The position numbers and the translations under genes are program-made. From the NCBI GenBank assembly GCA_947493255.1, contig CANLQK010000003.1:186001-250000 (forward strand): 64,000 bases of DNA, written 5' to 3'. This document shows, one piece after another, positions 16,537 to 54,486 of the stretch. A model generated the notes under the pieces. It saw only the letters and a program-made list of their open reading frames with translations, had not been told where the DNA came from and did not search any database. Source of the stretch: an uncultured Paracoccaceae bacterium (lineage in GTDB: Bacteria > Pseudomonadota > Alphaproteobacteria > Rhodobacterales > Rhodobacteraceae). Numbering within the stretch: position 1 is the stretch's first letter; the number at the start of each line of letters is the position of its first letter.

Positions 16537-16620
16537 GCGGCCGAACCGAGGGGCTGGTGCTGAAAGCGCCCGCCCCGTGGGGGCGGTTCGGGCGCTGCCC
16601 AATCGAAGATTGGGCCGGGT
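16537..16620 (+). repeat. GC-rich intergenic repeat, copy A
   Basis: The stretch 16537-16599 recurs almost base for base in reverse orientation at 54384-54447 (about 60 bases, a handful of mismatches; shared core includes GAGGGGCTGGTGCTGAAAG). It is followed here by a hairpin (GCCCAATC, GAA loop, GATTGGGC, about 16598-16616), where copy B carries a different but equally perfect hairpin. The repeat lies directly downstream of the AT-rich gene at 16623-17591, reading out of that gene. Confidence 0.85.
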
Positions 16621-16622
16621 AT

Positions 16623-17591
16623 TTACTCTGGTTTCCAGAGAAGAGCTTCGTCGCCAGCATAAGTGTCTTTCTGAACGTTGATCTCCGAAGAAACAAAACC
16701 CCGATAAATATGTGAAAATGAGCGCTTAACGCTCAGTGCTTCGGTAAAAAGGGGTCCTGAAATATATTGTTCATTCCTGACCCCATCTGTGTCTTCAGAA
16801 ACCAAGAACACGAAGGTGCTCTTTTCATCGGGAGCCACCCTCAATACTGCTTGTTCAAGAACATTTTGTGCATCAGAGGCTGTGTCGGAAATAGAATCGA
16901 AAAGAGATTTGTGGCACTCTGATAAATCTCCTATGTATTTTCGAACGAACCACTTTAGATCGAGTTTGCCGACGTTTAGTGCTTTGATTTCGTCGCGGGT
17001 AGCCCTTCGAACCTTTTGAGATACCAAGAGCTTAGCAACTGTGAAGTATGGAGCCACTGTCAACTTTCGGCGACTGGGGCTGTTAACTTTATTCCTCTCG
17101 TCACGATATCTGTTCGCTGAGTTAATTGAAAAACCTCCCAGCGGAAGCTCAGCATGTTGGGCGTAATTCCTGCAACCGTCCATGACGCGATATTCTAAAG
17201 ACTCATCGAATTTTTCTTTGAGGATTTTTTTGAAAACTTCACAGGCATCGGCAGGTAGTGATTTGCTCCCATTTAATAGTTGCGGCACTTGGTCTATGTA
17301 GCATCTCGACGCTGTCAGAAGAGTCAGAGTTCGCAAGTTTAAGCCAATCCGAAAGTCGTTCCAAAAAATTTCATTGTAGGGCGATGAATTGGCTCGAAAT
17401 TCGTATTCGATTAGAGAAGTCACCATGAATTTCTCTATTTCAAGATGACTTGCGATGATGACGTCGAAAAGTTCGCGACACTTCTGCAAATTGATAACCG
17501 TCTTGCGTAATTCAGTTAAATGAATCCACTCTTCCTTGCTGATTGAAAGGCGGCACTTACCATCAAGTTTTTGCTCAATTGTATACTTCAT
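16623..17591 (-). CDS. AT-rich hypothetical protein with HEPN-like motif
   Basis: A 322-residue protein I cannot place in a named family. Its DNA is clearly AT-richer than its neighbours. The middle contains RNYAQH (residues 141-146), which fits the RNxxxH signature of HEPN-fold ribonucleases and is followed by ELPLGG. The surrounding sequence is predicted helical (residues ~40-135), as HEPN domains are. The ATG at 17591 lies five bases after the rimO stop, so it depends on rimO translation; an in-frame GTG at 17630 would overlap rimO. Its 3' end abuts repeat copy A. A defence or RNA-cleaving role is an inference only. Confidence 0.7.
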   Translation of the reverse strand: MKYTIEQKLDGKCRLSISKEEWIHLTELRKTVINLQKCRELFDVIIASHLEIEKFMVTSLIEYEFRANSSPYNEIFWNDFRIGLNLRTLTLLTASRCYIDQVPQLLNGSKSLPADACEVFKKILKEKFDESLEYRVMDGCRNYAQHAELPLGGFSINSANRYRDERNKVNSPSRRKLTVAPYFTVAKLLVSQKVRRATRDEIKALNVGKLDLKWFVRKYIGDLSECHKSLFDSISDTASDAQNVLEQAVLRVAPDEKSTFVFLVSEDTDGVRNEQYISGPLFTEALSVKRSFSHIYRGFVSSEINVQKDTYAGDEALLWKPE

Positions 17592-17596
17592 TTCCT

Positions 17597-18997
17597 TCAA
17601 AGTGCTTGGTTGTCCGCCAAACACCCCCACAAGTCATACTCACCAGCCTCATCCACCTCGACACTCACAATCTCCCCAACCTTCAACCCATCCGTTCCCT
17701 CATCAATAAACAGGTTCCCGTCGATCTCTGGCGCATCCGCCTTCGTGCGGCAGGTGGCGATGCCGTCTTCATCGATGTCATCAATAATCACATCCATGGT
17801 CTGGCCGACTTTGGCGGCCAGTTTGGCCTCGGAAATCGTTTGGGCTTTCTCCATGAACCGGTCCCAACGCTCTTGCTTTAGCTCTGGGGCTACATGATCG
17901 GGGAGGGTCGTCGCCCGTGCACCGTCGACGTTTTCGTATTGAAAACAGCCCACGCGGTCCAATTGGGCTTCGTCCATCCAATCGAGCAGGTGCTGGAATT
18001 CTTCCTCCGTCTCCCCCGGATAGCCGACGATAAAGGTCGAGCGCAGGGTGATGTCGGGGCAGATGCCGCGCCATTCCGAAATACGGTCTAGGGTGCGTTC
18101 GGCGGCGGCGGGGCGGGCCATGCGGCGCAGGGTGTCGGGGTGGGCGTGTTGGAAAGGAATGTCCAAATACGGCAGGATCAGCCCGTCCGCCATCAGCGGG
18201 ATCAGGTCGCGCACATGGGGGTAGGGGTAGATGTAGTGCATGCGCACCCACAAATCGCGGCCTGCGCCAAGCGCCCCAAGGTCGCGCGCGAGGTCGGTGA
18301 TATGGGCGCGATGCCCACGATCCTCGGCGTGTTTGATGTCGATCCCGTAGGCGGATGTATCCTGCGAAATCACCAGCAGTTCTTTGACGCCATTATCCAC
18401 CAGCTTTTCCGCCTCGCGGATCACCGCATGGGCGGGGCGGGAGGCCAGTTTGCCGCGCATGTCGGGGATGATGCAGAACTTGCACTTGTGGTTACAGCCC
18501 TCGGAAATTTTGAGGTAGCTGTAGTGGCGCGGGGTGAGGGAGACACCGCTGGCAGGCAGCAGGTCGATGAAGGGATCGGGGCTGGGCGGCACCGCGCTGT
18601 GCACGGCATCGAGCACCTGTTCGTATTGGTGTGGGCCTGTGACAGCGAGGATATTGGGGTGATGTTCGCGGATGTAATCGGGCTCCGCGCCCAAGCAGCC
18701 GGTGACGATGACCTTGCCGTTTTCAACCAAAGCCTCGCCGATGGCATCAAGGCTTTCGGCCTTAGCACTATCAAGGAACCCGCAGGTGTTGACGATCACC
18801 GCCTCGGCGCCGGTGTAGTCCGGCGAGATCGCGTAGCCTTCGGCGCGCAGACGCGTAAGAATGCGTTCGCTGTCGACAAGCGCTTTGGGACAGCCCAAGG
18901 AGACCATGCCGATGGTGGGCTGGCCGTCGCGCTTGGGTTCGGTAAAGCGGGCTTGCGGGGCGAGGTCGGGGCGTAAGTTTGGCGGATTGCTAGACAT
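17597..18997 (-). CDS. rimO: Ribosomal protein S12 methylthiotransferase RimO
   Basis: A 466-residue radical-SAM methylthiotransferase that modifies the universally conserved aspartate of ribosomal protein S12. An N-terminal UPF0004 domain (residues ~25-145) carries the auxiliary-cluster cysteines in [25 protein letters not shown] and [10 protein letters not shown]. The radical SAM core has CNHKCKFC near residue 175 (CxxxCxxC) followed by MRGKLASRP, and a TRAM domain closes the protein. The start at 18997 begins [10 protein letters not shown]; an upstream in-frame start at 19063 is less likely because it would overlap the divergent gene. A hypothetical AT-rich gene follows after five bases. 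Confidence 0.97.
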
Positions 18998-19072
18998 GGT
19001 GGTGCTATAGGCGGGAATGGGAGCGCAGGAAAGCACATTGAAAGATCGCGGGTTCGCGACCATATCTAAACC

Positions 19073-20809
19073 ATGGTAAATGTACGCGATTTTGGGGACC
19101 TTTCTCCGCTGGAAGATGAGATGTTGGCAAAGGCGTCGACGGGCGAAGAAATTGGCCGGAGAACGTTGCCGCGCGGTGACGACGCGGAAAAGCAGGTTCG
19201 CGCTGCGCTGCTGCGCGCGCTGTTGTTGGGAGAGATTGAAGGAGTAGCGCTACACGCAAAAGGAGTGATCTTAAGCGGCGCTAATATTATCGGTGATCTT
19301 GATTTCGAAGATTGTCGTCTGTCTAGACCATTAACGCTGACCCATACAGTTCTTCAAGGGGCGTCAATTTTCAGGGACTGCCAAATACCTTCGCTTTTCA
19401 TGGGAGCATGCCAACTTGATCATCTCAATTTAGAACGCCTTAGATGCAAGGGATCTCTTCAGCTTGTAACAGGCTTCACAGCGCGGACTGGCGTCAACTT
19501 GCGTGGGGCACGGCTTGGCCATAATTTTGGTTGCGACGGTGCTATCCTAAAAAGCCGCACTGGTTACGCACTTATTGGAGATAGCCTGAAGGTCGATGGT
19601 AACGTGTTTTTCAGACACGGGTTTGAGGCCCATGGGGAGGTGACGATGCGTGGTGCCAGCATTGGCGGCCAATTCGATTGTTCTTCTGGTCACATTGAGA
19701 ACGTGAATGGCGTTGCGATGGATTGTGAAGCAATGACCGTCGGCGCAGATGTGTTCCTAAAAAATGGTTTTGTAGTGTGCGGGGATTTGATCCTAGTGCG
19801 CGCGCGGGTAGAGGGGAACCTGATAATAAGAAAGGCCGATATCACAGGTTTCGTTTCCCTTGAAACCGCGCGGGTTGAGGAAGGGCTGTTTTTTCAAGGG
19901 GTTACCGGTCCGGCAAAGGGGGTAGATCTCACCGATGCCTCAGTTGGGGTGTTGCGCGATGATTACGCAAGCTGGGAGAACGTTTTACAAAAGAGGCTTA
20001 AAGGTTTCAGATATGATAGGATTGATAGCAAGATAACCGTGGAAGAACGGATCGCGCTCTTGACCCCGCGAGCTAGCGCGATTGTCGATTTTGATCCGCA
20101 ACCCCATACGCAGCTAGCAAAGGTCATGGCGGAGCACGGGCAGCCCGCTGGTGCGGCACAGCTTCGGTTTGAACGTGAAAAACACCTACACCACGCGGTC
20201 TACTCTCGCGAAATCGAGCGGCTTGGCCCACCGTCGTGGGCGGCTTTCCGTTACACTTTTTGGGAACGAGAGCTCGCGCAGGTAAAATTCGGAATGACCA
20301 TCATTTTTCGTTGGTTGTTTGGCTACGGTCACCGGCCTGCGCGGGCGTTTTTGTTCGTTGCAGGATTGTGGCTTTTTTCGTCAATTCTTTACTGGCGGGT
20401 CTATGCGACAGGACAGATGGCCCCCAATTCGGATGTGGTGCTAACGTCTGCTGAATGGCTCGCTGCAGTACGTGATGTCACTGTATGTAATGCTGTCGAT
20501 TGGGCAACCATTGGGTGGAACGCTTTCCAGCCCGCGGTCCCCGAGGGTTGCCAGCAACCGTTGCACATTTGGTCAGACACCGCCCAAAGTGCCGTTGACT
20601 ATGAAACCTTTAACCCTCGACTCTACGCGCTTGATCTCTTTGTGCCCCTCGATGCTCTTGGCCAAGAAACATCTTGGGCGCCGTCAAAGGATCGCGGCTG
20701 GTGGGGCTGGTTCGGCTATGCCATGCGCATGCCCATCCAGATGGCGGGTTGGATTATTACCGCGGTTGGCGCGGCCGTTGTTACGGGTTTGATTGGGCGC
20801 AAAGAATAG
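19073..20809 (+). CDS. Pentapeptide-like beta-helix protein with C-terminal membrane domain
   Basis: A 578-residue protein in two parts. Residues ~55-300 show recurring short strands with a spacing of about 20 ([54 protein letters not shown]), which suggests a right-handed beta-helix related to pentapeptide repeats. After a charged helical linker (~330-415), hydrophobic segments near residues 425-440 and 550-570 flank a ~110-residue Trp-rich, cysteine-bearing region that would lie outside the membrane. There is no signal peptide, so the helix is probably cytosolic. I know no function for it. It precedes the nonulosonate genes and is divergent from rimO. Confidence 0.75.
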
Positions 20810-20842
20810 GGCATCAGGGGGCAAATCAGATAGGGGCAGCAT

Positions 20843-21541
20843 ATGATCATCGGTGAAATTGGCGCTCGTAAAGGCAGCAAGGGGGTTCCGAATAAGAATT
20901 TTCGGGACATGTGTGGCAAGCCTTTGATTGATTGGTCGCTCGATCAATTGCTCGACAGTGCGCGCATTGATGCGGTGGTTGTCAGCACCGATGACCCTGC
21001 GATTTACGAACATGCCATTGCCAAGGGGGCGCTGGATATCGGGTTGCGGCCCGCGGAATTGGCCACGGATGATGCGCCCAAGTGGGGTGTTTGGGAACAT
21101 GCGTTGGCGGCGGCGGAGGCGATCGTGGGCCCTGCCACGGGGTTCATTGATCTGGACTGCACATCGCCCTTGCGCTTGGCCGAAGACATCGACGGGGCGC
21201 TTGATCTGTTTGAACAGGGCAAAGCCGACATGGTTATGGGCTGCGCCGAGGCGGAAACGAACCCCTACTTCAACATGTTGGAGCTGGGCGAGACCGGATC
21301 ACTGGGCGTTGTCAAACCGCTCCCCGGTGGGGTTTGGGCGCGGCAGAACGCGCCGAAGGTGTATATTCACACGGGAATGTATGTGCTGAAACCAGACTAC
21401 ATTCGCACGGCCAAAACCCTGTTTGACGGCCATGTCATTCCCTATGAAATGCCTGATGATCGCGCGATGGACATTGACCGTCCGCTTGATTGGCAGATCG
21501 TTGAATTCCTCATGAAACAGCGGTTGGGACTAGACGCCTAA
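20843..21541 (+). CDS. neuA: CMP-nonulosonate (acylneuraminate) cytidylyltransferase
   Basis: A 232-residue nucleotidyltransferase that couples CTP to a sialic-acid-like sugar (N-acetylneuraminate, legionaminate or pseudaminate) and releases CMP-sugar plus pyrophosphate. The family hallmarks are the P-loop-like GARKGSKGVPNKN at the N terminus, VVSTDDPAIYEHA near residue 45, FIDLDCTSPLR near residue 105, and DDRAMDIDRPLDW near residue 215 (metal-binding Asp pair). It belongs to the nonulosonate set with the GT30 gene, neuC and neuB, although it is transcribed toward them. Its stop overlaps the end of the convergent GT30 gene by 12 bases. Confidence 0.92.
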   Translation: MIIGEIGARKGSKGVPNKNFRDMCGKPLIDWSLDQLLDSARIDAVVVSTDDPAIYEHAIAKGALDIGLRPAELATDDAPKWGVWEHALAAAEAIVGPATGFIDLDCTSPLRLAEDIDGALDLFEQGKADMVMGCAEAETNPYFNMLELGETGSLGVVKPLPGGVWARQNAPKVYIHTGMYVLKPDYIRTAKTLFDGHVIPYEMPDDRAMDIDRPLDWQIVEFLMKQRLGLDA

Positions 21542-22807
21542 CACCCGCAACAGATCGTCAGTGATACGCGACAAGCCTTGTACGGATGCGTTTTGTTCGG
21601 TGTTTGCCCTAGCTGCCATGGCCCCGATATCGGGGTCTTGAAGCGCGGCGACAACGTCTTGTGGGGTTTGGACAAGGCGCGCCGCTTCTGCAGCCCTTAG
21701 GATTGCGAAATCTGTCGAAAAATTTGCGGTCCGCGGCCCGTTCAATACTGGGCAGCGGAGGGTTACGGCCTCCCACGGGTTGTGGCCTTCAACGGCGTCA
21801 AACGTCCCCCCAATCAAGGTGGCAAAGGAAACCCGATACCACAGCCCTAGCTCGCCGAAGGTGTCGGCCATGAAATAGGGGGCATCTGCGGTGGGCAGGC
21901 CATCTGTGCCGCGTCGCGCCACGGACAACCCGTCTTGCTGCATGGCTTGGACAATAGGGTCGCCCATGGCGGGATCACGTGGCGCGATGATCAGCAACGC
22001 TGCCGGGTCCGTTTTGAGGAGAGCTTCGTGGGCTTCTATCGCAATTGCCTCATCTCCGGGGTGCGACGAGGCAAGGCACCATGTCCGGCGCCCCTGTGTG
22101 GCCGTTTTGACGGCGGCCAACGCGCTTGTGTCGCATGAGAGGGGGGATGCTGCTGCCTTGATCGAACCGGACACATGAACTCCGGCGTCCGTCGTCATCA
22201 GATTGATCAGGTTCGATTGCGTCGTGTCGTCTTGGGCGTGGATGATATCCATCAAACCGTAAAGGTCGCCGTAAGCGCGCCCAAACTTTGCGCGGGCACG
22301 CGCGCTGTCATTTGTAATGCGGGCCGCAACATAGGCCTGCGGAATGTCACTCCGTGCACAGGTTACCGCAAGGCGCGGCCAAACCTCTTGGTCCGACCAA
22401 ACGGCCAGATCGGGTTTCCAATGATCCAGAAACGCATTTACGGGGCCGGGAAAATCAAGCGGCAGGTATTGATGCTGTGTGCGGGGGGGCAAATTATGGG
22501 CAAACACCTGCGCGGATGAACGCGCCGAAGACGTTACCAGAAAGTTCAGATCAGGCTGTTTGCGCAACATGGCCTCGATCAACCCACGCAGGGCCATAAC
22601 CTCGCCGACACCGACACCGTGCAGCCAAACTAGCCGCCCCTCGGGGCGCTCTAACGTCGCGCGGCCAAGCTTTTCGTGCCACCTGTCGGGGTCTTCTTTG
22701 CCGCGCCCAAGGCGGCGTTTAAGGATCGGGGCCGCCAAAGGTGACAAAACCCCACCCATGGCAAGCACAAGGCGTAGCATCGGGCCGATCGGTTTAGTCT
22801 GTGTCAT
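21530..22807 (-). CDS. GT30-type (Kdo-transferase-like) glycosyltransferase in nonulosonate cluster
   Basis: A 425-residue enzyme of the WaaA/KdtA (GT30) family, which moves Kdo from CMP-Kdo. Conserved features are the catalytic Glu in WLHGVGVGEVMAL near residue 65, a SDQEVWPRL stretch near 140, CLASSHPGDEAI near 250, and ADTFGELGLWYR plus EGHNPWEAV in the C-terminal CMP-binding domain. An N-terminal hydrophobic stretch anchors it to the inner membrane. It overlaps neuC by 14 bases and sits among neuA/neuC/neuB, and a second GT30 gene lies at 29996. It may therefore transfer the nonulosonic acid, also a CMP-activated 2-keto-3-deoxy sugar, rather than Kdo; that is inference. Confidence 0.82.
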   Translation of the reverse strand: MTQTKPIGPMLRLVLAMGGVLSPLAAPILKRRLGRGKEDPDRWHEKLGRATLERPEGRLVWLHGVGVGEVMALRGLIEAMLRKQPDLNFLVTSSARSSAQVFAHNLPPRTQHQYLPLDFPGPVNAFLDHWKPDLAVWSDQEVWPRLAVTCARSDIPQAYVAARITNDSARARAKFGRAYGDLYGLMDIIHAQDDTTQSNLINLMTTDAGVHVSGSIKAAASPLSCDTSALAAVKTATQGRRTWCLASSHPGDEAIAIEAHEALLKTDPAALLIIAPRDPAMGDPIVQAMQQDGLSVARRGTDGLPTADAPYFMADTFGELGLWYRVSFATLIGGTFDAVEGHNPWEAVTLRCPVLNGPRTANFSTDFAILRAAEAARLVQTPQDVVAALQDPDIGAMAARANTEQNASVQGLSRITDDLLRVLGV

Positions 22808-23918
22808 GGAACCGCTTTTGCAATCCGCCTTCCCAGAAGGACGCATCGCTTACGATATCAGCAAATCGTGCTGCGGCATCGCCACGGCCAAATGCATCGT
22901 GGCGATCATACCGCTTGCCCCATTCAGCGTTCAAAAATGCACCGATACCCTCGCGGTCATTGGCGGCCACCGATTTGAGCGAAGGCGCCTGTGCGCGGTT
23001 GGTTTGACGGGTGCCAATATCCAAGGATGGCGTGCCCAAGAACGGGGCTTCGCGCACGCCCGCGCTCGAGTTCCCGACCATGATGGCCGCGTTTTTCATC
23101 AGCTCTGAGAAATGCGCGAACCGCATCGAGGGCAGGATGCGAAACCGTTCGCTGGGCAATCCATCCAAAACGTCAAAAATGTCGCTCGATCCGGGGTCGT
23201 TGTTGGGCGCGATCACAACAAAGGGCTTGCCGGTGCTTTCTAAGGTTGAAAACAGGTCGCGCGCCTGTTGCCCCATCGTGTCGGCCTCTGAGGTAACGGG
23301 GTGAAACACCACGATGCCAAATTCACCCTGTGGCAAATCATATCGTGCACGCACATCATCGATTGTGACACCTGAGGGGGCCGAATGAAAATCCAGTTCA
23401 GGGGATCCGATCACATGGATCGCGCCCTCTGGTTCGCCCATTTTCATCACACGGGCCTTGGCGGCCTGCGAAGAAACGAAATGGTGGCTCGCTAATTTCG
23501 AATTACAATGGCGGAAAATTTCGTCAATCGTACCCGACACCTCACCACCTTCGATATGGGCGGAGCGAATGTAATTGGTGGCCGCGACCAACGCGCAGGC
23601 AAGTGCCTCAATGCGGTCCCCGTGAACAACCACTAGGTCTGGCTTCAGCTCGGCTACAAACTTTGAAAACCCCATAACAGTGCGGGCCAAAATTTGATCC
23701 TGCGGATCGCCTTCGGTTTGGTTGACGAACTCATGCACGCCGACGCCCGTGGTGCGGGCAACCTCAACCTTGGTCAGCCCGTAGCGATCCATCATATGCA
23801 TTCCAGTGACCCAAAAATGCACATCATGCCCCGCATCACGCGCAGCCACCGCCAGCGGTTCCATTTTGCCGAAATCCGCACGGGTGCCGGTGACGAAGAG
23901 AAGTGTCTTTGTCGTCAT
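22794..23918 (-). CDS. neuC: UDP-N-acetylglucosamine 2-epimerase, hydrolysing (NeuC/LegG type)
   Basis: A 374-residue epimerase-hydrolase that converts a UDP-HexNAc to free ManNAc (or its di-N-acetylbacillosamine-derived analogue), the first committed step of nonulosonate synthesis. Seen are VTGTRADFGKMEPL at the N terminus, VVHGDRIEALACALVA near residue 98, AHIEGGEVSGTIDEIFRH near residue 120, and the UDP-binding MVGNSSAGVREAPFLGTPSLDIGTRQ near residue 285. These match the hydrolysing subclass. Whether it acts on UDP-GlcNAc (sialic acid) or the 2,4-diacetamido sugar (legionaminic acid) cannot be decided. It overlaps the FkbM gene by four bases (ATGA) and the GT30 gene by 14. Confidence 0.93.
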   Translation of the reverse strand: MTTKTLLFVTGTRADFGKMEPLAVAARDAGHDVHFWVTGMHMMDRYGLTKVEVARTTGVGVHEFVNQTEGDPQDQILARTVMGFSKFVAELKPDLVVVHGDRIEALACALVAATNYIRSAHIEGGEVSGTIDEIFRHCNSKLASHHFVSSQAAKARVMKMGEPEGAIHVIGSPELDFHSAPSGVTIDDVRARYDLPQGEFGIVVFHPVTSEADTMGQQARDLFSTLESTGKPFVVIAPNNDPGSSDIFDVLDGLPSERFRILPSMRFAHFSELMKNAAIMVGNSSAGVREAPFLGTPSLDIGTRQTNRAQAPSLKSVAANDREGIGAFLNAEWGKRYDRHDAFGRGDAAARFADIVSDASFWEGGLQKRFHDTD

Positions 23919-24685
23919 GATGGGCGCAAATACATTACAACCGTTCCGCCCAGAACAGACTTGGATTTTTCCAATCCATACTGCGTCAAAGCGTCATGAA
24001 TCGATTGTAATTGATCCTCTGACAGTCGATCTGGATGCAATTCCATAACAACAGCTCGTAACCCGGAAGCATCCAAAGCCGGAATAAGTTCTGCTTCACC
24101 GCCCTCAATATCGCAAAGTAGAACATTGGGTTTGAACTCTGTCACAACATCCATCAGTTGAGCTGTTGGGACAACGATCGAACCGCTGTTTTTTCTGTTG
24201 TCGTCTACGAGAAGGGAGCTGGATGCGAAGGATCCAGTCAGGTGGAATGTTCTTGTCTCGCCCGGTGCTGAATTCGGAACGAGCACGGCATGGCGGAGGT
24301 CGACATTCGTGATGTCGTGGTCCTTCAGAAAGACCATCGTGTCCGGAATCATATTTGGATTTGCTTCAAACGAAAGAACCTGACCCGATGGCGCGGCGGC
24401 GCGCCCAGCAAGTGCTGTAATTACCCCCAAACCAGAGCCCAACTCAAGAACACGGTCGCCATCCTTGACGCATTTTTGTAGGCCTCGGATTTCAGGATCC
24501 TCATAGTGCTCGCGCGCCATTGCCAATACGATCTCCGAATTCATCCCAGACCGGTTAATTGGAATCGTTAGCCCGCGGTATGAAATCGCTGATTGGGCTC
24601 CGCGAAACTTCATGAGCGAGACTTTCATCTTGCCAATCACGCGCCATATTTCACGGCGCACTTTCCAGAGTGGGGGAAAAGACAT
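23915..24685 (-). CDS. FkbM family SAM-dependent methyltransferase
   Basis: A 256-residue methyltransferase. The SAM-binding fold is shown by VLELGSGLGVITALAG near residue 75, SFEANPNMIP near residue 102, and LLCDIEGGEAELIPAL near residue 190, with the FkbM-typical DIEGGE acidic motif. Such enzymes usually O-methylate sugars of surface polysaccharides, and the position between neuC and an RgpF-like gene fits this. An N-terminal basic stretch may contact the membrane. About 110 AT-rich bases with no gene separate it from the RgpF-like gene upstream. The ribosome site is weak. Composition is somewhat AT-richer than neuC. Confidence 0.87.
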   Translation of the reverse strand: MSFPPLWKVRREIWRVIGKMKVSLMKFRGAQSAISYRGLTIPINRSGMNSEIVLAMAREHYEDPEIRGLQKCVKDGDRVLELGSGLGVITALAGRAAAPSGQVLSFEANPNMIPDTMVFLKDHDITNVDLRHAVLVPNSAPGETRTFHLTGSFASSSLLVDDNRKNSGSIVVPTAQLMDVVTEFKPNVLLCDIEGGEAELIPALDASGLRAVVMELHPDRLSEDQLQSIHDALTQYGLEKSKSVLGGTVVMYLRPS

Positions 24686-24798
24686 TATTTGTATTCCATT
24701 GTTGGCCCGCGGTTCAGTTGAAGCCGGGCATTATCTTAAAATTTTGATGACCTTAGCGAATGTTCTGGATTGGACCAATAGATTGTTGGGTGGTTCAT

Positions 24799-25938
24799 CT
24801 ATGGCGTAGTGGGTGTAGCAGATTGGCGCGCCTGAATTTCGGCCGTTATCCCGGAAAGAGGTTCTGTTAAGTCCCCAGCGGCAACAGCGCTCAGGTATTT
24901 ATTGCGCGTCTCAGCGTGTAAAGTGCCATATGTTTTCTTAAGAAAAGTACCGTTCGATTTCTTGAGCGAGCAGACCCCGAAAAGTGACATTGTCGCATAG
25001 CAGAAAGATGCATGCATGTTCCGTTTTTTTGTAACTGCCGCGACGTGAGCTATAGCTTCGGCTATCCAGTCTTCCGTTTCAGAAAAGCGGTTCAGAATAT
25101 CAACGCCCGCTGCGTTAAATTCCGCATCCGTGTATGCCGCATACTTGAGTGTTTTTTGCAAAAAGGCTGCGTCTTGCGTCTCCAGTGCTTTAAGTAGCTT
25201 AGCACGATCAACCAGCCCTTCTACCGTAAGGCCGCCGCTTCGCATCGCATCGCAAAGCGCCCGTTCTCCGCGGTAAACAGCGTTCAATTTATTCGATGAA
25301 ACGCGGTAGTCTTGCCAGTAAGTTTTGAACGCATCAGAAGAAATGGCCGCTTTGTCGAATAGGAAAAAGTAGCTTTCCAAGAAGGCTTTGCGAACCGAAA
25401 ACGTTGATCTACGTTGGATGTCCTCATGATAGACGATGCCGGTCACATTGGCGGCTTTGGATTGCAAATCATCCAACACGGTTGAGGCGCCATGCAAAGG
25501 AAACCAAATACTGTCATTTAGGATCAATAAAGCGTCCGGCGATTGTCCAATGTGGTCTAGTAAGCGGACCCCATCCCGATAACCACCAAAGTCATAACCA
25601 TAGTTCGGTCGATCTGTGACCATCCATGAAACAGGCGTTAGGACTAAACGATCTTTCTCGCTCAATGGGCAATTCGACACGATAAGCGGGGCAAACCCCT
25701 TGTCGATTAGATGGCGGCACTCGTGCAAAGTAGACTCTAGAATGCCATCTGTTTGATAGATCAAGAAAATCGCTACCTTCGAAAGGGCGGGAACCTCCCC
25801 TTGTGTGATATTCAGCTGATCTGGAAATTTTCGATCATAGGATCGTTTCACGAAACCTTCGATAGGGTATGATGCGAGGGATCTGGCCTTTTGCCCAAGT
25901 CTGTCAAGTTCGCGGCGAAGTTTCCACGCAGGGATCAT
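24799..25938 (-). CDS. RgpF-like rhamnan-synthesis family protein
   Basis: A 379-residue cytoplasmic protein. The conserved core SNCPLSEKDR, then PNYGYDFGGYRDGVRLL near residue 130 and ALLILNDSIWFPLHG near residue 155 are those of the RgpF family (rhamnose-glucose polysaccharide synthesis), a group of putative glycosyltransferases involved in O-antigen and capsule. There is no membrane segment. The C-terminal ~100 residues look divergent and rich in Lys and Ala. It overlaps neuB by four bases (ATGA at 25935-25938), which ties it to nonulosonate synthesis. The gene is visibly AT-richer than neuB, hinting at independent acquisition within the operon. Confidence 0.8.
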   Translation of the reverse strand: MIPAWKLRRELDRLGQKARSLASYPIEGFVKRSYDRKFPDQLNITQGEVPALSKVAIFLIYQTDGILESTLHECRHLIDKGFAPLIVSNCPLSEKDRLVLTPVSWMVTDRPNYGYDFGGYRDGVRLLDHIGQSPDALLILNDSIWFPLHGASTVLDDLQSKAANVTGIVYHEDIQRRSTFSVRKAFLESYFFLFDKAAISSDAFKTYWQDYRVSSNKLNAVYRGERALCDAMRSGGLTVEGLVDRAKLLKALETQDAAFLQKTLKYAAYTDAEFNAAGVDILNRFSETEDWIAEAIAHVAAVTKKRNMHASFCYATMSLFGVCSLKKSNGTFLKKTYGTLHAETRNKYLSAVAAGDLTEPLSGITAEIQARQSATPTTP

Positions 25939-28058: not shown

Positions 28059-28070
28059 CGTGGCCTACAC

Positions 28071-46864: not shown

Positions 46865-47376
46865 AGAGGTTTACGACGAGAACGCCGGTTTCTTCGGACG
46901 CCCTTGCGATAGCCAGTATCGACGCAGATGGCCTTGCAACCGGTCACGCCACGTTTCGCGATACACCACATGATTGGGAGAGCTTTAGCGCAAGTTTTCT
47001 GACTGAACATGGTCTTGCTCTGGTGGCCGAAGACAATAGTCATGTTGTCGGTTGGGCCGGTGTATCTCAGACTTCTGCACGTGCAGTCTACAGAGGTGTG
47101 GGTGAAATCTCCGTCTATGTCGCGGCGAAAGCAACCGGTCGAGGGCTAGGGAGATACCTGTTGGAAGAACTGGTACTCGCATCAGAACACGCCGGATACT
47201 GGACATTGGTTGCCCAGATCTTCCCAGAAAATAAAGCGAGCTTGTCTCTTCATAAAGCATTGGGATTCAAGGTTGTCGGCACAAGAGCAAAGCTTGGAAG
47301 AATGGACTACGGCCCATTCGCGGGCCGTTGGCGTGATGTGATCATGTTGGAAAGACGCAGTCGATCCATAGGGTGA
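46861..47376 (+). CDS. Phosphinothricin/methionine-sulfoximine N-acetyltransferase-like protein
   Basis: A 171-residue GNAT enzyme. It shows VYRGVGEISVYVAAKATGRGLGRYLLEELV near residue 80 (strand plus acetyl-CoA loop RGLGR), then VAQIFPENKASLSLHKALGFKVVGTRAKLG near residue 120 and the diagnostic C-terminal GRWRDVIMLERR. This pattern is that of the phosphinothricin (Pat/Bar) and L-methionine sulfoximine acetyltransferases, which detoxify glutamine-synthetase inhibitors. The start overlaps the permease stop, so the two are co-translated. The real substrate is unproven. Confidence 0.88.
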   Translation: MKRFTTRTPVSSDALAIASIDADGLATGHATFRDTPHDWESFSASFLTEHGLALVAEDNSHVVGWAGVSQTSARAVYRGVGEISVYVAAKATGRGLGRYLLEELVLASEHAGYWTLVAQIFPENKASLSLHKALGFKVVGTRAKLGRMDYGPFAGRWRDVIMLERRSRSIG

Positions 47377-47538
47377 CGCTCACAAAAACCGCCATTCACT
47401 CAATACACAGCATCGGTGACTCTGGGCTCAGAACTACCATTCGCCGCGCTCTTTCAGCGGGCGTGTTTTCCGATCTTAGCCACTCCTGCGACCTTTGTAC
47501 GCTTTCAACATATTAGGTTGCCTGCTATCTCGCACCCC

Positions 47539-47880
47539 ATGACCCGCCTTCTAACCCTGATCCTCGCCTTCCTCATCGCTGTCACATCACAGCAAATGGC
47601 CGTTGCGCGTGGCATGATGATGGACGCCGCAGGTCAGGTTGTTCTGTGTACGGGGCAGGGTGTGCAAACCGTCACGATCGACCATCAGGGCGATCCAATG
47701 GAAACTGTCCATATCTGCCCTGACTGTGCGATGACGTTTGCGGCTTCGTTGGATGCGCCCATTGCGTTGCAAACGCCTGTTACCCACATGCAAAGCCTCG
47801 GGCAAACGCCTGTCTGTGATTTGCAAATTGGACTTGTCCCCAATGCGCCAAACGCGCGCGGTCCCCCTCTGTCGGCCTGA
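47539..47880 (+). CDS. Secreted small DUF2946-like protein, copper-associated
   Basis: A 113-residue protein with an N-terminal signal sequence (MTRLLTLILAFLIAVTSQQMAVA, cut near residue 23). The mature part has a MMMDAAG stretch, a CTG motif, and HICPDCAMTF near residue 60 with a CPDC pair, then a further Cys near the end. Its length and Cys/Met content resemble DUF2946-type periplasmic proteins that sit beside copper genes, but family assignment is uncertain. It precedes a PCuAC copper chaperone by 50 bases on the same strand, which supports a copper role. Confidence 0.65.
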   Translation: MTRLLTLILAFLIAVTSQQMAVARGMMMDAAGQVVLCTGQGVQTVTIDHQGDPMETVHICPDCAMTFAASLDAPIALQTPVTHMQSLGQTPVCDLQIGLVPNAPNARGPPLSA

Positions 47881-47930
47881 ATTTCCACTTACATTTTTAC
47901 AACATTCAGACTGACAGACAGGAACTTCAC

Positions 47931-48413
47931 ATGTCCTTTAAAACCACGCTTCTAACCGCCATTGCTGCGGCCTCTTTCTCCGTACCGGCATTCGCTGAAA
48001 TCGAAATCCATGACCAATACGCGCGGTCCTCAAATGCTATGGCAGGCGCGGCCTTTATGGTCATCCACAATCACGGTGACACGGACGACCGCTTGGTGGG
48101 GGTTTCCTCGGACGCTGCCGCGCGCGTTGAACTCCACACCCACATCGAAGACGCCGACGGCATCATGCGTATGACGCACGTCGAAGACGGCTTAGACCTC
48201 CCCGCTGGTGGTGAAATCGCCATGGTACGCGGCTCAGATCACGTCATGTTCATGGGCCTGAATGCGCCGTTCGAACAGGACGAAGTCGTCACCATCACCT
48301 TCGAATTCGAAAACGCGGGCGAGGTTGTTGTCGAAATACCGGTCGACCAAGACCGCGCGGCGGATCATGAGGGTCACGACAAAGAAGACGACCACGCTGG
48401 CCACGATCACTAG
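47931..48413 (+). CDS. Copper chaperone PCu(A)C
   Basis: A 160-residue periplasmic copper chaperone that delivers Cu(I) to cytochrome oxidase. The signal peptide ends near AFAEIEIHD (residue ~22). The mature domain has YARSSNAMAGAAFMVIHNHGDTDDRLVGVSSDAAARVELHTH and MRMTHVEDGLDLPAGGE with the copper-binding His/Met pattern, then GSDHVMFMGL. The C-terminal tail (DHEGHDKEDDHAGHDH) is rich in His, adding metal-binding capacity. A DUF2946-like gene precedes it. Its stop overlaps the end of the convergent Sir2 gene by four bases. Confidence 0.95.
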   Translation: MSFKTTLLTAIAAASFSVPAFAEIEIHDQYARSSNAMAGAAFMVIHNHGDTDDRLVGVSSDAAARVELHTHIEDADGIMRMTHVEDGLDLPAGGEIAMVRGSDHVMFMGLNAPFEQDEVVTITFEFENAGEVVVEIPVDQDRAADHEGHDKEDDHAGHDH

Positions 48414-49090
48414 GTTAACACGTCATTAACCCACTCTGGCACGACCTGCGTTGCCGGACCAAAACGGGCGTCTGCGAAATCGGACGCCCGTTCGCTTGGG
48501 GCAAGGTTTAATTCCAGCGTGTCCGCCCCGAATTCACGTGCGGCGCGCGCGAACCCTGCCGCCGGATACACGACACCGCTGGTTCCAATCGCCACAAATA
48601 GGTCTGCCTGTTCCAACGCGGCGCCAATGCGGTCCATGTGGTAGGGGACTTCGCCAAACCACACCACGTCTGGCCGTGCCATCGCGCCACAGTCGCATTG
48701 CGTCTCTACCGACATCTCCTCTGGCGCTGGCCAACGTGCGTCGCATGCGGGGCACAACGCCACCAAATGCGTGCCATGCATATGGATCACATCACGCGAC
48801 CCCGCCCGTTCGTGTAAATCATCTACATTCTGCGTCACTAACGTGACCTCAGCGCGCGGATCCATCTGCAACGTCGCCAATGCCACATGGGCCGCATTGG
48901 GCTGACAGGCCCGTACCTTCGCCCGCCGCATATTGTAAAACGCATGCACGGCTGCGGGATCCTCGGCAAACCCCTCCGGCGTCGCCAGCTTCATAAGGTC
49001 CGCGTTTTCCCATAACCCACCTTTGTCGCGAAACGTCCCCATCCCGCTTTCCGCAGAAATGCCCGCGCCAGTTAAAATCACAATGCGCAT
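48410..49090 (-). CDS. cobB: Sir2 family NAD-dependent protein deacylase
   Basis: A 226-residue sirtuin (CobB-like) that removes acyl groups from protein lysines using NAD+. Seen are ILTGAGISAESGMGTFRDKGGLW at the N terminus, LVTQNVDDLHERAGSRDVIHMHGTH near residue 95 (catalytic His), CPACDARWPAP and QCDCGAMARPDVVWFGE (CxxC and CxC zinc ligands) and an IGTSGVVYPAAGFA NAD-binding loop. The start at 49090 gives the standard sirtuin start; an in-frame start at 49123 would overlap the divergent gene. The divergent LMW-PTP gene begins 27 bases away. Confidence 0.95.
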   Translation of the reverse strand: MRIVILTGAGISAESGMGTFRDKGGLWENADLMKLATPEGFAEDPAAVHAFYNMRRAKVRACQPNAAHVALATLQMDPRAEVTLVTQNVDDLHERAGSRDVIHMHGTHLVALCPACDARWPAPEEMSVETQCDCGAMARPDVVWFGEVPYHMDRIGAALEQADLFVAIGTSGVVYPAAGFARAAREFGADTLELNLAPSERASDFADARFGPATQVVPEWVNDVLT

Positions 49091-49117
49091 CGGCCAATCC
49101 CCCGCTATGCTGCCTCC

Positions 49118-49552
49118 ATGCAACGTATTCTATTTGTCTGTCTGGGCAACATCTGCCGCTCTCCCACAGCCGAGGCCGTGACCCGCGCCAAAGCGCCCCA
49201 CCTGTCCCTCGATAGCGCGGGCACCGCAGGCTACCACACAGGTTCGCCGCCCTATGGCCCCATGCAACAAGCCGCATCTGCGCGCGGGTACGACCTTAGC
49301 CCGCTGCGCGCCCGCCAGTTTACACCAAATGATTTCAATGACTTCGACGTCATCATCGCCATGGACGCAGAAAACGCGCAAGACATCGAGGCACAACGCC
49401 CAACCGGCGCCTATACCCCCGTCGTCCTGTTCACAGACCACATCGGCGAAGACGGAACACCCGTGCCAGACCCGTACTACACCCGCGACTTTGACGGATG
49501 TCTAGATTTAATAGAACGCTGCGCAGATGGCTTGATTAAGGGCCTGTCTTAA
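49118..49552 (+). CDS. Low-molecular-weight protein-tyrosine phosphatase
   Basis: A 144-residue phosphatase. The P-loop VCLGNICRSPTAE (CxxxxxRS) starts at residue 8, a SAGTAGYHTGSPP stretch follows, and DPYYTRDFDGC near residue 118 holds the general-acid Asp. LMW-PTPs dephosphorylate protein tyrosines, and some relatives act as arsenate reductases; the complete DPYY loop favours phosphatase. It is divergent from the Sir2 gene, and its stop overlaps the end of the convergent lipoprotein gene by four bases. Confidence 0.95.
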   Translation: MQRILFVCLGNICRSPTAEAVTRAKAPHLSLDSAGTAGYHTGSPPYGPMQQAASARGYDLSPLRARQFTPNDFNDFDVIIAMDAENAQDIEAQRPTGAYTPVVLFTDHIGEDGTPVPDPYYTRDFDGCLDLIERCADGLIKGLS

Positions 49553-49878
49553 CCGCAGGTATTACGCGCCCGCGTCACGAACACCTGATACCGACGCCAA
49601 AACGCGTCATTGGCCGTCGTGTCGCTGATGCGGATCGTGTGGGCGAACTCAGGATCTTTAAAGAACCGCTCAAGACGGCTGCGATCCGCAGAGGATAGCT
49701 CCGCATTGGCCACGCCTTGCACGCAATTGCACAACCGCGTGTTCGCGGCCGACCGGTCCGCCTCAAGGCAGGCACGGCTGATCGGCCCAGACGCACCGCG
49801 CGACGAACCAGAACTTTCAAACCGGTTGCCACAGGCCGCCAGCGACAAAATACACGTCATCAACAGAATTACCCGCAT
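49549..49878 (-). CDS. Small Rhodobacterales-type lipoprotein
   Basis: A 109-residue lipoprotein. The signal ends at a LAAC lipobox (Cys18), so it should be lipid-anchored in the envelope. The mature part has a conserved-looking SRACLEADRSAANTRLCNCVQGVAN (residues ~37-62) with three Cys residues, then FFKDPEFAHTIRISD and a final Cys. Proteins of this type in the order sometimes carry the label arginine transporter, which nothing here supports. The start at 49878 is the lipoprotein start; a further in-frame start at 49959 is unlikely. Confidence 0.75.
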   Translation of the reverse strand: MRVILLMTCILSLAACGNRFESSGSSRGASGPISRACLEADRSAANTRLCNCVQGVANAELSSADRSRLERFFKDPEFAHTIRISDTTANDAFWRRYQVFVTRARNTCG

Positions 49879-50228
49879 CACTACCACCTCATCATTGCCC
49901 GCCGATTTTTGGCTTGGGCGTTTTTTAACTGCTGGGCCCAGTATGTCTGAATTGTGCAAAGCAGGAAAGGGGGAACGAGATCACATTCGCGACGGTCCGC
50001 CGATAACGTTACACCGCTGCACGGTTTCAGGGGCAGCGCCCGCCCCTCGGCTCGGCCCCACGCTTCTTTTATATCACCTTGGAACGGCAAAGCCGGACCG
50101 CGCCCGACCCTCCCCACGGGAGGGCGCACTGCAATGGCCCGCCACAAATCCCCCACTCATATGTGGAAATGGATCGAAAGCCACAAACTCCACGGCGCGC
50201 CCACCCAGGCTCGGTCGCGGTCCTCGCG
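49879..50228. repeat. Gene-poor region with degenerate copies of the GC-rich repeat
   Basis: About 350 bases without a gene I can support. The stretch 50032-50060 (GGCAGCGCCCG ... CCCCTCGGCTCGG) matches the two ends of repeat copy B with the middle missing. The stretch 50093-50130 on the minus strand resembles its centre (GCGCCC, CCCGTGGGG, TCGGGCGC). A perfect CCCTCCC-CAC-GGGAGGG hairpin lies at 50108-50124. A 32-codon open frame (50134-50232, plus) has a GGGAGGG site but looks too short to call. Confidence 0.6.
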
Positions 50229-51656
50229 TTAGACTTGAGGTGGAGTATCCGTGAAATAGTCCATCAGCTTGCGGACCATCTTCCAAAGCCACTCGACGCG
50301 AGCCACACTCTTTTTCGCTTTGTCGATCCATAGAACAATCGTCGCCGAATAATTTGCGAACCTTGCACGAATGAAATTCCCGACCCTTTGGCCTGAAGCG
50401 ATTGCCTTACTATCTTCTTCGATGATTGCGCGCGCTTCGCCTTTGGTCTCAGCGGCGAGCGCTTCTGTGAGCTCTTTTAACTCTTCTGGGTCAATGGCTT
50501 CTGGATTCTCACGACGGTATAGCTTTGAAGCGCGTAAGCACCTCTTTCTGGCGATCTCGTCTGTTTCACATATTTCCTCCGCAGCTGAGAACGCCGCGGT
50601 TTGCAAAGCAATCAAAGCCCCATCTTCTGGGTATCGGTTTCCCAAATTTGTTTGAAACATCAAGCTTGCATCGTTGAGTAGGCCCGCGACAGCGCTAGGG
50701 TTCGCGCTTTCAAGCGCCCGTGCGATTGCGAGCGCCTCCTCGCATTCTTCGTCAAAACCGTTATTCCCACTGGCCTTCAATGCGGTTGACAGCGCACCGC
50801 CAACTCTTTCTTTGAGATAATCGAGTAACTCTGTTTCGAGCTGTTGTTCGTCATCGAGAACAAAAGCATCGTCTGCATCATTGCGAACCAAAGGGGTTGC
50901 CACTGAAGTCTTCAACCGCGCCTCGATCTTCTCAATCTCAGCCGCAACCGCCTCTATACCTTCCTGCCAAATCGATTCATCAATGTTTGCAACTTCGAAC
51001 TGGAGCTTGTTGTCCATGAGTACGCCCTCATAGGCACTGCGCATCCAGCGCCGCCAAAAATCAGTTGCGCGTAGAGCTTTGGGACGCCATTCGTTGAAGA
51101 ACTTTTCATAGTTGAGCCAATCGTACACTCTACTTTCTGTCCAAAGGCCCCTAAGAAGAAGCTGCTTGGCCCGTTCGTCTCCGATTGCTTTTGTGGAATT
51201 CGTAACGCCCTGATAGACAAAGTTAACTTCTTCAATCAGACGGTCATCCTCCGACGCATTGGTTGAAGAATTGTCAAATCCAAAGCCACCGCCTTCAGAA
51301 GTGTGGAATTCGAATGAAGATAGGCCCGACATCTCGGATTGAGTGAAAATTCGTCTCTTCCTAAAATACGCTAAGTGATAGGTATCAGGCTTGTCCAACG
51401 GTTCATATGGAGCTGAGAATATTTTTGTTTCTTTATTCTGATCTGAATAGACGGTTATCGCCAACCTCAACCAACCTAGAACAGTTTGATCAGAGCCTCG
51501 CCACAGCATTTCCTCAAGTACATCACCATCTTGCAGAGTTCTTAACATGTGACGCGTCAAGATAACCTGCCTACAATACGAGGATAGCCAGCCTAGTTTA
51601 CGTAGTGCGTCTGAAAACTCAGGGTGTTCTGAGTAATCTTCGTCATCTTCGACCAT
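50229..51656 (-). CDS. AT-rich hypothetical protein (475 aa)
   Basis: A 475-residue soluble protein I do not recognise. The N terminus is acidic ([18 protein letters not shown]). The middle (~residues 60-230) contains [43 protein letters not shown] and several charged helices. Residues ~240-420 are a helix-rich, Glu/Ala-rich region with coiled-coil character ([35 protein letters not shown]). The C terminus is basic with possible hydrophobic helices. Composition is AT-richer than lepA, from which it diverges by 35 bases. A defence or mobile-element origin is possible but unproven. Confidence 0.65.
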
Positions 51657-51691
51657 TGCCAAACCCCTTATACCACGCCATATCCACACGT

Positions 51692-53488
51692 ATGACCGAC
51701 CTAGATAAAATCCGCAATTTTTCGATCGTGGCGCACATCGACCACGGAAAATCCACGCTCGCTGATCGCCTGATCCAGTCCACCAATACGGTGGCCGAAC
51801 GGGACATGAAGGCGCAGATGCTCGACAGCATGGATATCGAACGCGAACGCGGCATCACCATCAAGGCCAACACCGTCCGCATCGACTATCATGCGAAAGA
51901 CGGCGAAACCTATGTCCTCAACCTCATCGACACACCCGGTCACGTCGATTTCGCCTACGAAGTCTCCCGCTCCATGCGCGCGGTTGAAGGCTCGTTGCTC
52001 GTCGTCGACAGCACCCAAGGCGTCGAGGCCCAGACCCTCGCCAACGTCTATCACGCCATCGAGGCCGACCACGATCTCGTTCCCGTGTTCAACAAAATCG
52101 ACCTTCCGGCCTCTGACATCGACCGAGTCGCCGAACAGGTCGAAGACGTCATCGGCATCGATGCCTCCGGCGCCATCGCTGTCTCCGCGAAAACAGGGCA
52201 GGGGATCGAAGAAACCCTCGAGGCCATCGTCACCCAGCTGCCCGCCCCAAAGGGCGACGTCGACGCGCCGCTCAAAGCGATGTTGGTCGATTCATGGTAC
52301 GATAGCTACCTCGGCGTGATCGTCCTTGTCCGCATCATCGACGGCGTCCTCAAAAAGGGCGAAAAGGTCAAATTCATCTCCAACGGGACCATCCACCACG
52401 TGGATCGCATCGGCGTCTTCCGCCCCGAAATGCAGCCCGTCGACCAACTCGGCCCCGGCGAAATCGGCTTCCTCACCGCCTCCATCAAACAGGTGCGCGA
52501 CACCCGCGTGGGCGACACGATCACCCACCAACGTTCCGAAGTTGAACCGCTCGACGGTTTCCAACCTGCGCAACCGGTGGTCTTCTGTGGCCTCTTCCCC
52601 GTGGACTCTTCCCAATTCGAAGACCTGCGCGAAAGCATCGACAAACTCGCCCTCAACGACGCGTCCTTCTCCTTTGAAATGGAAAGCTCCGCCGCCCTCG
52701 GCTTCGGCTTCCGCTGCGGCTTCCTTGGCCTGCTCCACCTTGAAGTGATCCGCGACCGGATCGAGCGTGAATTCGACATCGAACTCATCACCACCGCGCC
52801 CTCGGTCATCTATCACATCCACATGAAAGACGGCACCAAGCTCGACCTTCATAACCCCGCCGACATGCCCGACGTCACCACCGTCGACCACGTCGCCGAA
52901 CCGCGCATCAAAGCGACCATTCTGGTGCCCGACGAATACTTGGGCGAAGTCCTCAAACTCTGCCAAGACCGCCGCGGCATCCAAGAAGACCTCACCTATG
53001 CAGGCTCCCGCGCCATGGCCGTCTACGACCTGCCGCTCAACGAAGTCGTGTTCGACTTCTACGACCGCCTGAAATCCGTGACCAAGGGCTACGCGTCGTT
53101 CGACTACCAACTCACCGGCTACCGCCAAGACAACCTCGTGAAAATGTCCGTTCTGGTGAACGAAGAACCGGTCGACGCGCTCTCCATGATGGTCCACCGC
53201 GACCGCGCCGAGGCCCGTGGCCGCGCTATGGTTGAAAAATTGAAAGACCTTATCCCACGCCACATGTTCAAAATCCCGATCCAAGCGGCCATCGGCGGTA
53301 AAGTCATCGCCCGTGAAACATTGTCGGCCATGCGTAAAGACGTGACCGCGAAGTGTTACGGCGGCGATGCCAGCCGGAAGCGCAAGCTGTTGGATAAGCA
53401 GAAGGCGGGTAAGAAGAAGATGCGCCAGTTTGGTAAGGTGGATATTCCGCAAGAGGCCTTTATCTCCGCGCTAAAAATGGACGACTAG
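51692..53488 (+). CDS. lepA: Elongation factor 4 (LepA)
   Basis: A 598-residue ribosome-associated GTPase that supports ribosome assembly and translation under stress. The G domain has [15 protein letters not shown] (G1) at residue ~15, [16 protein letters not shown] (G2), [13 protein letters not shown] (G3) and [11 protein letters not shown] (G4). LepA-specific domain marks are [39 protein letters not shown] near residue 350 and the C-terminal [37 protein letters not shown]. The ATG at 51692 gives the family length. It is flanked on both sides by AT-rich accessory genes. Confidence 0.98.
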
Positions 53489-53492
53489 TCGG

Positions 53493-54356
53493 GTGGGTCC
53501 TAAATACCTGTATCGATATCGATCATTTGTTGCAGATGTTAAAACAGAAAATCTGCCGATCAGGGCTGTCGAAGAACTTCGAAATGCTCAATTGCGAAAA
53601 ACGTGGTTCTCCAAAGTTAGCGAACAGAATGATCCTTTTGATACCAACCCGTACTATCAGGATAGTTCTGTAAAGGACGTTCGCGATTTTATGATTGGGT
53701 TTCGGAAGGTCGCTGGGTCCAGAGCAAGCTTCGCCAATGATGATTTTATCGCTGAGGCAAAGGCTCGCGGTATCAAAAAAGCTCAGGCAAAAAAACATCT
53801 AACTAATTGGCCGCTGCATATCGCAACTACCCGTCATACATTTAAGGAATATCGGCGAAACACATTGATTTCCTGTTTTTCAACAGAAATCCGGAATATT
53901 TTGATGTGGAGCTACTATGGTAATTCACACACTTCCTATTGCTTGCGGTTTAAGCTTGACGAAGGGGGGAATGGTCGGTCGGCCGTAGCTGAAGTTCGTT
54001 ACCTGGAAGAGCGGCCGTATCTGAACACTATGGACATGATGCGACGCATGGCTGCGGCGAGTCGGCCAAACCAGTTTGACTATGGAGATCAAGACAATGA
54101 GCGAGTCGATAACGCTACCTTGTTGTGTAAGTCCGATCATTGGGAGCATGAGAAGGAGTGGAGAGCCATTAAAACGCCTGATCAAGGTGAAGGCTATCAT
54201 TCGATTGCTCCTTACAGACTTGATAAAATTATTCTTGGTGCGAACACCTCTAAGGCTACTGAAATAGCACTGAGAAGTTCCATAGAAGACGTCAGACTTT
54301 CAAAATGCAAACTTAGTGAAACTCACTATGAATTACAGTTTGAGAACATATTGTAG
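53493..54356 (+). CDS. DUF2971 family protein
   Basis: A 287-residue DUF2971 protein of unknown function; relatives are scattered among accessory and defence-rich regions. The family pattern is KYLYRYRSFV at the N terminus, NDPFDTNPYYQDS near residue 45, LISCFSTEIRNILMWSYYGNSHTSYCLRF near residue 130, and HWEHEKEWRAI near residue 225, followed by LDKIILGANTSK. It starts at a GTG four bases after the lepA stop, so it is likely read through lepA coupling. Its DNA is visibly AT-richer than lepA. Directly after its stop lies repeat copy B. Confidence 0.85.
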   Translation: MGPKYLYRYRSFVADVKTENLPIRAVEELRNAQLRKTWFSKVSEQNDPFDTNPYYQDSSVKDVRDFMIGFRKVAGSRASFANDDFIAEAKARGIKKAQAKKHLTNWPLHIATTRHTFKEYRRNTLISCFSTEIRNILMWSYYGNSHTSYCLRFKLDEGGNGRSAVAEVRYLEERPYLNTMDMMRRMAAASRPNQFDYGDQDNERVDNATLLCKSDHWEHEKEWRAIKTPDQGEGYHSIAPYRLDKIILGANTSKATEIALRSSIEDVRLSKCKLSETHYELQFENIL

Positions 54357-54364
54357 TTGATCTG

Positions 54365-54486
54365 CCAAACGCCCAGCGTTTGGCAGCGCCCGATCCGCCC
54401 CCACGGGGCGGGCGCTTTCAGCACCAGCCCCTCGGCTCGGGCGCAGACAGTCAATGAATGCTCCGTGTGTTTCCCCTGCGCGATCC
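54365..54486 (-). repeat. GC-rich intergenic repeat, copy B
   Basis: Positions 54384-54447 are the reverse-orientation match of copy A at 16537-16599 (about 60 bases, few mismatches). It is preceded by a perfect hairpin GCCAAACGC-CCA-GCGTTTGGC (about 54363-54384). Its outer half (54402-54486) recurs as a direct, diverged repeat at 54567-54650. It begins immediately after the DUF2971 stop. Confidence 0.85.

Follow-up and report, generated by a model that had tools for sequence, protein, structure and literature searches.

Integron cassettes carry single, apparently promoterless genes, each followed by a folded element, attC, whose core sites read RYYYAAC and GTTRRRY. Repetitive extragenic palindromic (REP) sequences and bacterial interspersed mosaic elements (BIMEs), linked to REP-associated tyrosine transposases (RAYT), are palindromic, intergenic and placed at gene ends. 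Core-flanked hot spots and defence islands, mapped in E. coli (PMC10121019), hold differing accessory genes, some of them defence candidates, at one address flanked by conserved genes. Here we describe a structured repeat of about 80 nt that stands behind low-GC accessory genes at the 3' ends of rimO and lepA in an uncultured Paracoccaceae bacterium, within a window of 64,000 nt (the whole stretch of DNA analysed, positions 186,001 to 250,000 of contig CANLQK010000003.1, assembly GCA_947493255.1). The pattern is real and extends across many genera, the window's two copies being samples of it, and we see in it a variant form of core-flanked hot spot, frequently bounded by the repeat. We call the interval between the stop codon of a housekeeping host gene and the repeat a dock, and the two docks of the window are made up as follows.

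17597..19063, minus strand: rimO, host gene of dock A (NCBIfam TIGR01125, above cut-off)
16623..17591, minus strand: accessory gene A, 322 amino acids, GC 0.43, no Pfam family above cut-off, with an RNxxxH motif
16597..16615, minus strand: variable hairpin of repeat A, starting 7 nt past the accessory stop codon, as at B
16537..16616, minus strand: repeat A, hairpin and body (covariance model R1, 82.3 bits)
51695..53488, plus strand: lepA, host gene of dock B (Pfam LepA_C, above cut-off)
53493..54356, plus strand: accessory gene B, 287 amino acids, DUF2971, GC 0.44, matching PADLOC candidate PDC-S31
54364..54384, plus strand: variable hairpin of repeat B, 54364 being the point where homology to the sister genome G015 resumes
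54365..54444, plus strand: repeat B, hairpin and body (covariance model R1, 81.8 bits)

Copies A and B, picked out in the first-pass annotation as near-identical and inverted, are indeed inverted and 94% complementary over 67 nt, and the full elements score about 82 bits each. The same annotation had described both places as a host gene, 4-5 bases, an AT-rich gene and then the repeat in the same relative orientation, and this also holds: the rimO TGA is followed by 5 nt and ATG, the lepA TAG by 4 nt and GTG, and the accessory genes, at GC 0.43 and 0.44, compare with 0.61 for rimO, 0.59 for lepA and 0.555 for the window.

Each element consists of a hypervariable, perfectly paired hairpin (usually 8 bp), one A and a conserved body, where an inner hairpin is enclosed by the pairing of GCGCCCGAN with NTCGGGCGC. 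Over 23 aligned copies, 95% of the cells in the body structure are paired, as against 28-52% when the structure is slid by 1-3 columns; the 13 double-sided changes are confined to two pairs, and there is little variation at most of the remaining pairs. A stronger structural signal comes from the leading hairpin. A perfect hairpin of at least 6 bp directly precedes the body in 157 of 185 distinct copies, with exactly 8 bp in 114 of these, and the 157 hairpins comprise 112 different sequences, whereas a control 200 nt upstream found such pairing in 1 of 185. What had been noticed at A and B, hairpins unlike in sequence with perfect pairing in both, thus generalises, and the repeat amounts to a natural experiment in which pairing is kept through more than 100 different hairpin sequences. 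The family is found neither in Rfam, where nothing in the window reaches a gathering score (best in the B region E 0.3), nor in the literature searched, which, judged by titles and the beginnings of abstracts, describes neither the repeat nor a hot spot at lepA or thyX.

At lepA, the window can be compared with the sister genome G015, whose LepA is 98% identical. Homology between the two genomes ends 2 nt past the lepA stop codon and resumes at the first base of the repeat hairpin, with 629 of 690 positions identical in the left flank and 245 of 277 in the right. Between these edges the window holds its DUF2971 gene and G015 a 349-amino-acid gene without a Pfam match, the two having at most 12 nt in common. 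The lepA repeat and its 3' flank are orthologous in these sister genomes, whose inserts are unrelated, and at lepA the repeat does not travel with the gene.

Beyond this pair, the host genes beside the repeat are lepA, thyX, parE, pheS, sucB and cysS, named by Pfam (lepA) and NCBIfam, parE being a best match just below cut-off (714 of 723 bits), and the orientation of the repeat to each is nearly constant across genera. Our copies come from two sets, set 1 of 80 fetched regions and set 2 of 119 stretches, which share 6 copies; with these and locus L363, which duplicates the G004 contig, dropped, a single orientation was seen at the lepA 3' side (35 copies at 32 loci), thyX (15 at 14), parE (10 copies), pheS (5) and cysS (4). 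All four sucB repeats also agree, two of them scoring below 34 bits. A low-GC gene lies between host stop codon and repeat in 57 of 60 copies at lepA (34/35), thyX (13/15) and parE (10/10), as well as in 2/5 at pheS and 0/4 at cysS, where the repeat comes 19-25 nt after the host; sucB loci that have a low-GC gene (L154, L168) have it beyond the repeat. Repeats with no called gene occur at thyX (L371), pheS (L160 and L202), all four cysS loci and lepA (L374). The strand of the accessory gene varies at lepA and parE. These host-to-repeat distances cannot show larger inserts, because hosts were sought within 2.2 kb of the repeat. Genes were called with our own longest-ORF script, whose small, overlapping or antisense ORFs may be wrong, and because it chose an antisense ORF at the lepA of the window and at three further loci, the lepA count does not include these four.

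This constancy bears on the idea that gene and repeat form a mobile cassette, inserting as a unit through an attC-like folded site with a recombinase acting in trans, which we regard as unlikely. The docks resemble integron cassettes in pairing a single, apparently promoterless gene with a folded element, but they differ in their dispersed addresses and in an element fixed to the host; attC cores at both edges occur in 0/174 copies (the integron integrase itself was not searched for), with single cores in 4/174 for GTTRRRY (control 2/174) and 4/174 for RYYYAAC. No target-site duplications were seen by eye at A and B. Repeat and accessory gene share an orientation in 16 cases and oppose each other in 16 in set 1, and in 43 and 13 in set 2; the agreement in 43/56 would suit a cassette, but we read the excess as due to lepA and thyX, where repeat and gene both follow the host. 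Repeat pieces flanking the insert in G080 and G117 would suit it too, yet orientation is tied to the host gene, with the opposite one at parE, cysS and sucB, and at lepA the repeat and its 3' flank remain orthologous where the inserts differ, which argues against it. As a general rule, the gene-plus-repeat cassette proposed at first pass is thus not supported, with copy A as the exception.

Copy A counts in favour of a cassette. Low-GC ORFs stand behind the rimO stop codon in 11 of the 15 other Octadecabacter genomes fetched (the exceptions being G016, G007, G008 and G010, the last with less than 0.8 kb), and none of the 15 has a repeat match at rimO. In other genera, the 5' half of a repeat lies 39 nt past rimO in G024, which has no insert there, and G021 shows a weak match in the opposite orientation. 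The body of copy A scores best with the lepA-dock repeats of this genome, G015 and G004, and the only further copy with its variant lies by the lepA-side hydrolase gene of a Yoonia metagenome-assembled genome. A lepA-like body at a rimO site that is repeat-free in the other Octadecabacter genomes fetched indicates that here the repeat did move. Copy A is probably a recent copy from a lepA dock, going by these similarities, which would account for the near-identity of A and B; no other evidence speaks as strongly for a repeat that is to some degree mobile, and the element can probably also spread. Hairpins of a second recurrent type, GAATTGATCC-CTGGATCAATTC, were seen by eye beside repeats (L020, L021) and, as a translated reading, behind the rimO inserts of two Octadecabacter genomes (L072, L073).

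Low-GC genes adjoin 32/79 repeats as against 6/125 control gaps in set 1, and 56/103 as against 9/159 in set 2, low GC meaning at least 0.07 (0.06 in one analysis) below the local median or reference. These counts exclude repeats below 34 bits and include recurrent orthologous sites; set 2 also excludes 18 copies near a locus edge and loci too short or with too few genes. The 6 shared copies and L363 were kept in the set 2 association, the host survey, the 185 hairpin copies and the following count: with lepA, thyX, parE and pheS left out, the association is still 37/129 as against 15/284. This excess outside the four main hosts speaks against a coincidence of permissive sites, in which housekeeping 3' ends are simply safe places for palindromes and acquired genes alike and the repeat has no part in gaining or keeping them, as does the low-GC block that ends exactly at the repeat in the sister pair. 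On the other side, many genomes have lepA inserts without a detectable repeat, and repeats without inserts occur at cysS, pheS and thyX. We consider such a coincidence a real possibility, though a doubtful one.

A survey of the 3.9 kb past lepA shows how far inserts and repeat coincide. Among 68 loci, 6 were too short and were left out; in 41 of the 62 scorable ones a low-GC run starts within 700 nt of the lepA stop codon, and these runs span 500-2150 nt (median 1200), usually with one gene and none longer within the 3.9 kb. Repeats of at least 30 bits accompany 12 of the 41 low-GC loci and 2 of the remaining 21, which means that an insert can do without the repeat. Different accessory genes between the same conserved neighbours are found at both lepA and rimO, with low-GC genes at these 3' ends in many relatives, which supports the suggestion of an insertion hot spot. 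Compared with the hot spots of PMC10121019, the inserts here differ in being 0.5-2.2 kb long, usually a single gene behind lepA, in often abutting or overlapping the host stop codon and in often being bounded by a structured repeat.

The inserted genes themselves are varied. A Pfam scan of 40 inserts (36 from lepA docks) gave 17 with a family at E 0.01 or better and 13 past the curated cut-off, including DUF3800 (two), DUF2971, a SocA-like antitoxin, HNH, 8xMP and YaaC; a reverse-transcriptase match in one insert was below cut-off. Three of 10 proteins run through PADLOC match defence candidates, PDC-S31 twice (accessory gene B among them) and PDC-M32A once, and part of the inserts may be defence-like, in the sense of matching candidate families. 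Homologous inserts tend to occupy the same site, making up 21 of 4957 pairs within a site and 3 of 4359 between sites (some entries are duplicated). For inserts reading with the host, 4-nt overlaps with the host gene recur (3/7 at parE, 3/13 at thyX, 2/3 at pheS and two at lepA, counted from longest-ORF starts), and starts at or overlapping the host stop codon suggest translational coupling, as had been supposed at first pass when the upstream gene was taken to serve translation. Accessory gene A is far from fixed among related genomes: counting its own, 4 of the 295 family genomes have such a gene. Three of these genes, A among them, follow rimO, and the fourth follows a gene for glutamate racemase whose NCBIfam score falls slightly short of the cut-off; the relatives are 24-29% identical to A. 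The RNxxxH motif is invariant in 4/4 aligned homologs. HEPN nucleases combine an R-x4-6-H motif with the HEPN fold, and RNxxxH recalls these; the Pfam scan gave no HEPN match. A single-sequence structure model of the protein reached a pLDDT of 39 and was not used, and no solved structural relative was found at E up to 1.

Two further explanations concern the repeat alone. If it were only a transcription terminator or an mRNA 3'-end element, the inserted genes would be irrelevant to it; its strongly conserved pairing, its position at gene ends and the convergence of lepA and the neighbouring hydrolase gene on it would fit. However, T-runs follow the stem in 8/174 copies past the 3' end and 13/174 on the other strand as against 9 in controls, nothing terminator-like was found in 53300-54800, and copies lie between co-directional genes, all of which makes this very unlikely. 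A REP sequence of a RAYT transposase would likewise be short, palindromic and intergenic, but the repeat differs from REP/BIME in its few copies and host-specific orientation. PF01797 (Y1 transposase) has no match in this genome or in 26 of the 30 tested, so that we see next to no chance of this explanation and regard it as largely refuted for this genome. The matches to PF01797 number 48 in G014, 24 in G006 and one each in G025 and G086; the other nine Octadecabacter genomes searched have none.

BLAST finds the repeat in four places in this genome (A, B, a degenerate copy B' and C at parE), and the covariance model three full copies at E 0.01 or better, the third being C. Matches occur in at least 13 of 19 genomes of the genus (the most in one genome being at least 5) and, at a stricter cut-off, in at least 26 of 120 family genomes (at least 12). 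Even as lower bounds these numbers mean few copies per genome, not the hundreds of intergenic sites without gene association that had been weighed as a refutation. BLAST of 24 genomes from other families gave no match. An exact-pattern scan of the species-genome collection yielded at least 119 stretches, and among the matches listed 79 of 80 titles name taxa placed in Rhodobacterales and one only Alphaproteobacteria. A phage or plasmid home was rejected, as 0 phage and 3 plasmid records matched. Replichore polarity was also dropped: A and B lie in opposite orientation 38 kb apart, and orientation is mixed along the G027 and G117 chromosomes.

Near-constant repeat orientation per host, different low-GC genes inside and short inserts are what the docks share, and in one sister pair the stop codon and the first base of the repeat are the exact edges. 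Taken together, lasting repeats, changing genes, exact edges, short inserts and homologs at the same site favour allelic exchange over cassette insertion. We tentatively propose, at somewhat less than an even chance, that the repeat frequently marks the distal edge of a single-gene dock, and that homologous recombination exchanges the small accessory genes in it, with gene transfer agents (GTAs) as a possible carrier. The structured element would stay and be inherited with the housekeeping gene, and small genes would move in and out of the interval before it. An insert would be co-transcribed and translationally coupled with its host gene, the folded repeat may delimit or protect the 3' end of the transcript, so that genes before it are tolerated, and the housekeeping gene and the repeat-side flank would serve as arms for the exchange. 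GTA particles of about 4.5 kb are a plausible vehicle; with such carriage, inserts would stay short and lack mobility genes. In the passages covered of PMC9690577, RcGTA of R. capsulatus carries about 4.5 kb that is integrated by allelic replacement, which would suit short inserts with homologous arms; these passages describe no preferred sites, and the link to the docks is ours. The capacity fits the insert size limit without proving the vehicle. Matches to the GTA_TIM family were obtained in 27 of the 30 genomes tested, among them the present one.

Several observations weigh against this proposal. G016, G078 and G118 have repeats and no GTA_TIM match, G016 and G078 also having lepA inserts, so it is not strictly necessary that each genome produce GTAs itself. 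G112 has a reversed copy (31.6 bits) 1.5 kb past lepA; at a second site, upstream of lepA, three copies point one way and one the other; and in the lepA loci of G080 and G117 (L233, L244) the insert has repeat pieces to either side. DUF3800 genes are not confined to one dock, being found at lepA as well as parE, and because the copies beside a given host are orthologous to one another, the counts are not independent. Of all the steps, the part played by the repeat is the weakest. The repeat often bounds the hot spot but is not its sole cause, since 29 of the 41 low-GC lepA loci have no repeat of at least 30 bits; co-directional neighbours at pheS-pheT and cysS-citramalate synthase, together with T-runs no more frequent than in controls, also sit badly with a simple 3' end. 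In G117, the left repeat piece stops within the inner hairpin, at the onset of low-GC DNA.

The surroundings of the two docks hold three further features.

54521..54608, plus strand: degenerate tandem copy B', a direct repeat to B and a weak match (18.3 bits, E 0.51; BLAST E 1.8e-7 to copy A)
50029..50130, plus strand: probable decayed repeat pieces upstream of lepA, read by eye and weak (best 17.1 bits, E 0.79)
50229..51689, minus strand: third low-GC gene, 486 amino acids, GC 0.485, upstream of lepA, its 3' end facing the decayed pieces

B' belongs to a chain of further short palindromes after repeat B (54445-54680), and like chains stand behind the lepA repeat in G008 and G015. The third low-GC gene sits between a small lipoprotein-like gene and lepA, with the decayed pieces at its 3' side; the same place in O. 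algicola, G003 and G013 has a full repeat and other minus-strand genes, partly similar to it. Another low-GC stretch (GC 0.48-0.50, around 24000-25500) has no repeat match.

A broader idea, which we hold to be possible but on balance doubtful, is that Rhodobacterales possess a dispersed, integrase-free counterpart of the integron, with a limited, fixed set of docks for single genes at the 3' ends of lepA, thyX, parE, rimO and pheS that would be expressed from the host, closed by the repeat in many lineages and supplied with small, mostly unknown and in part defence-like genes that populations exchange by particle-borne homologous recombination. If so, these docks would offer a short list of addresses for collecting small genes of unknown kind, including some that match defence-candidate families, in a largely marine order, and a role of GTAs in the exchange of accessory genes would become directly testable.

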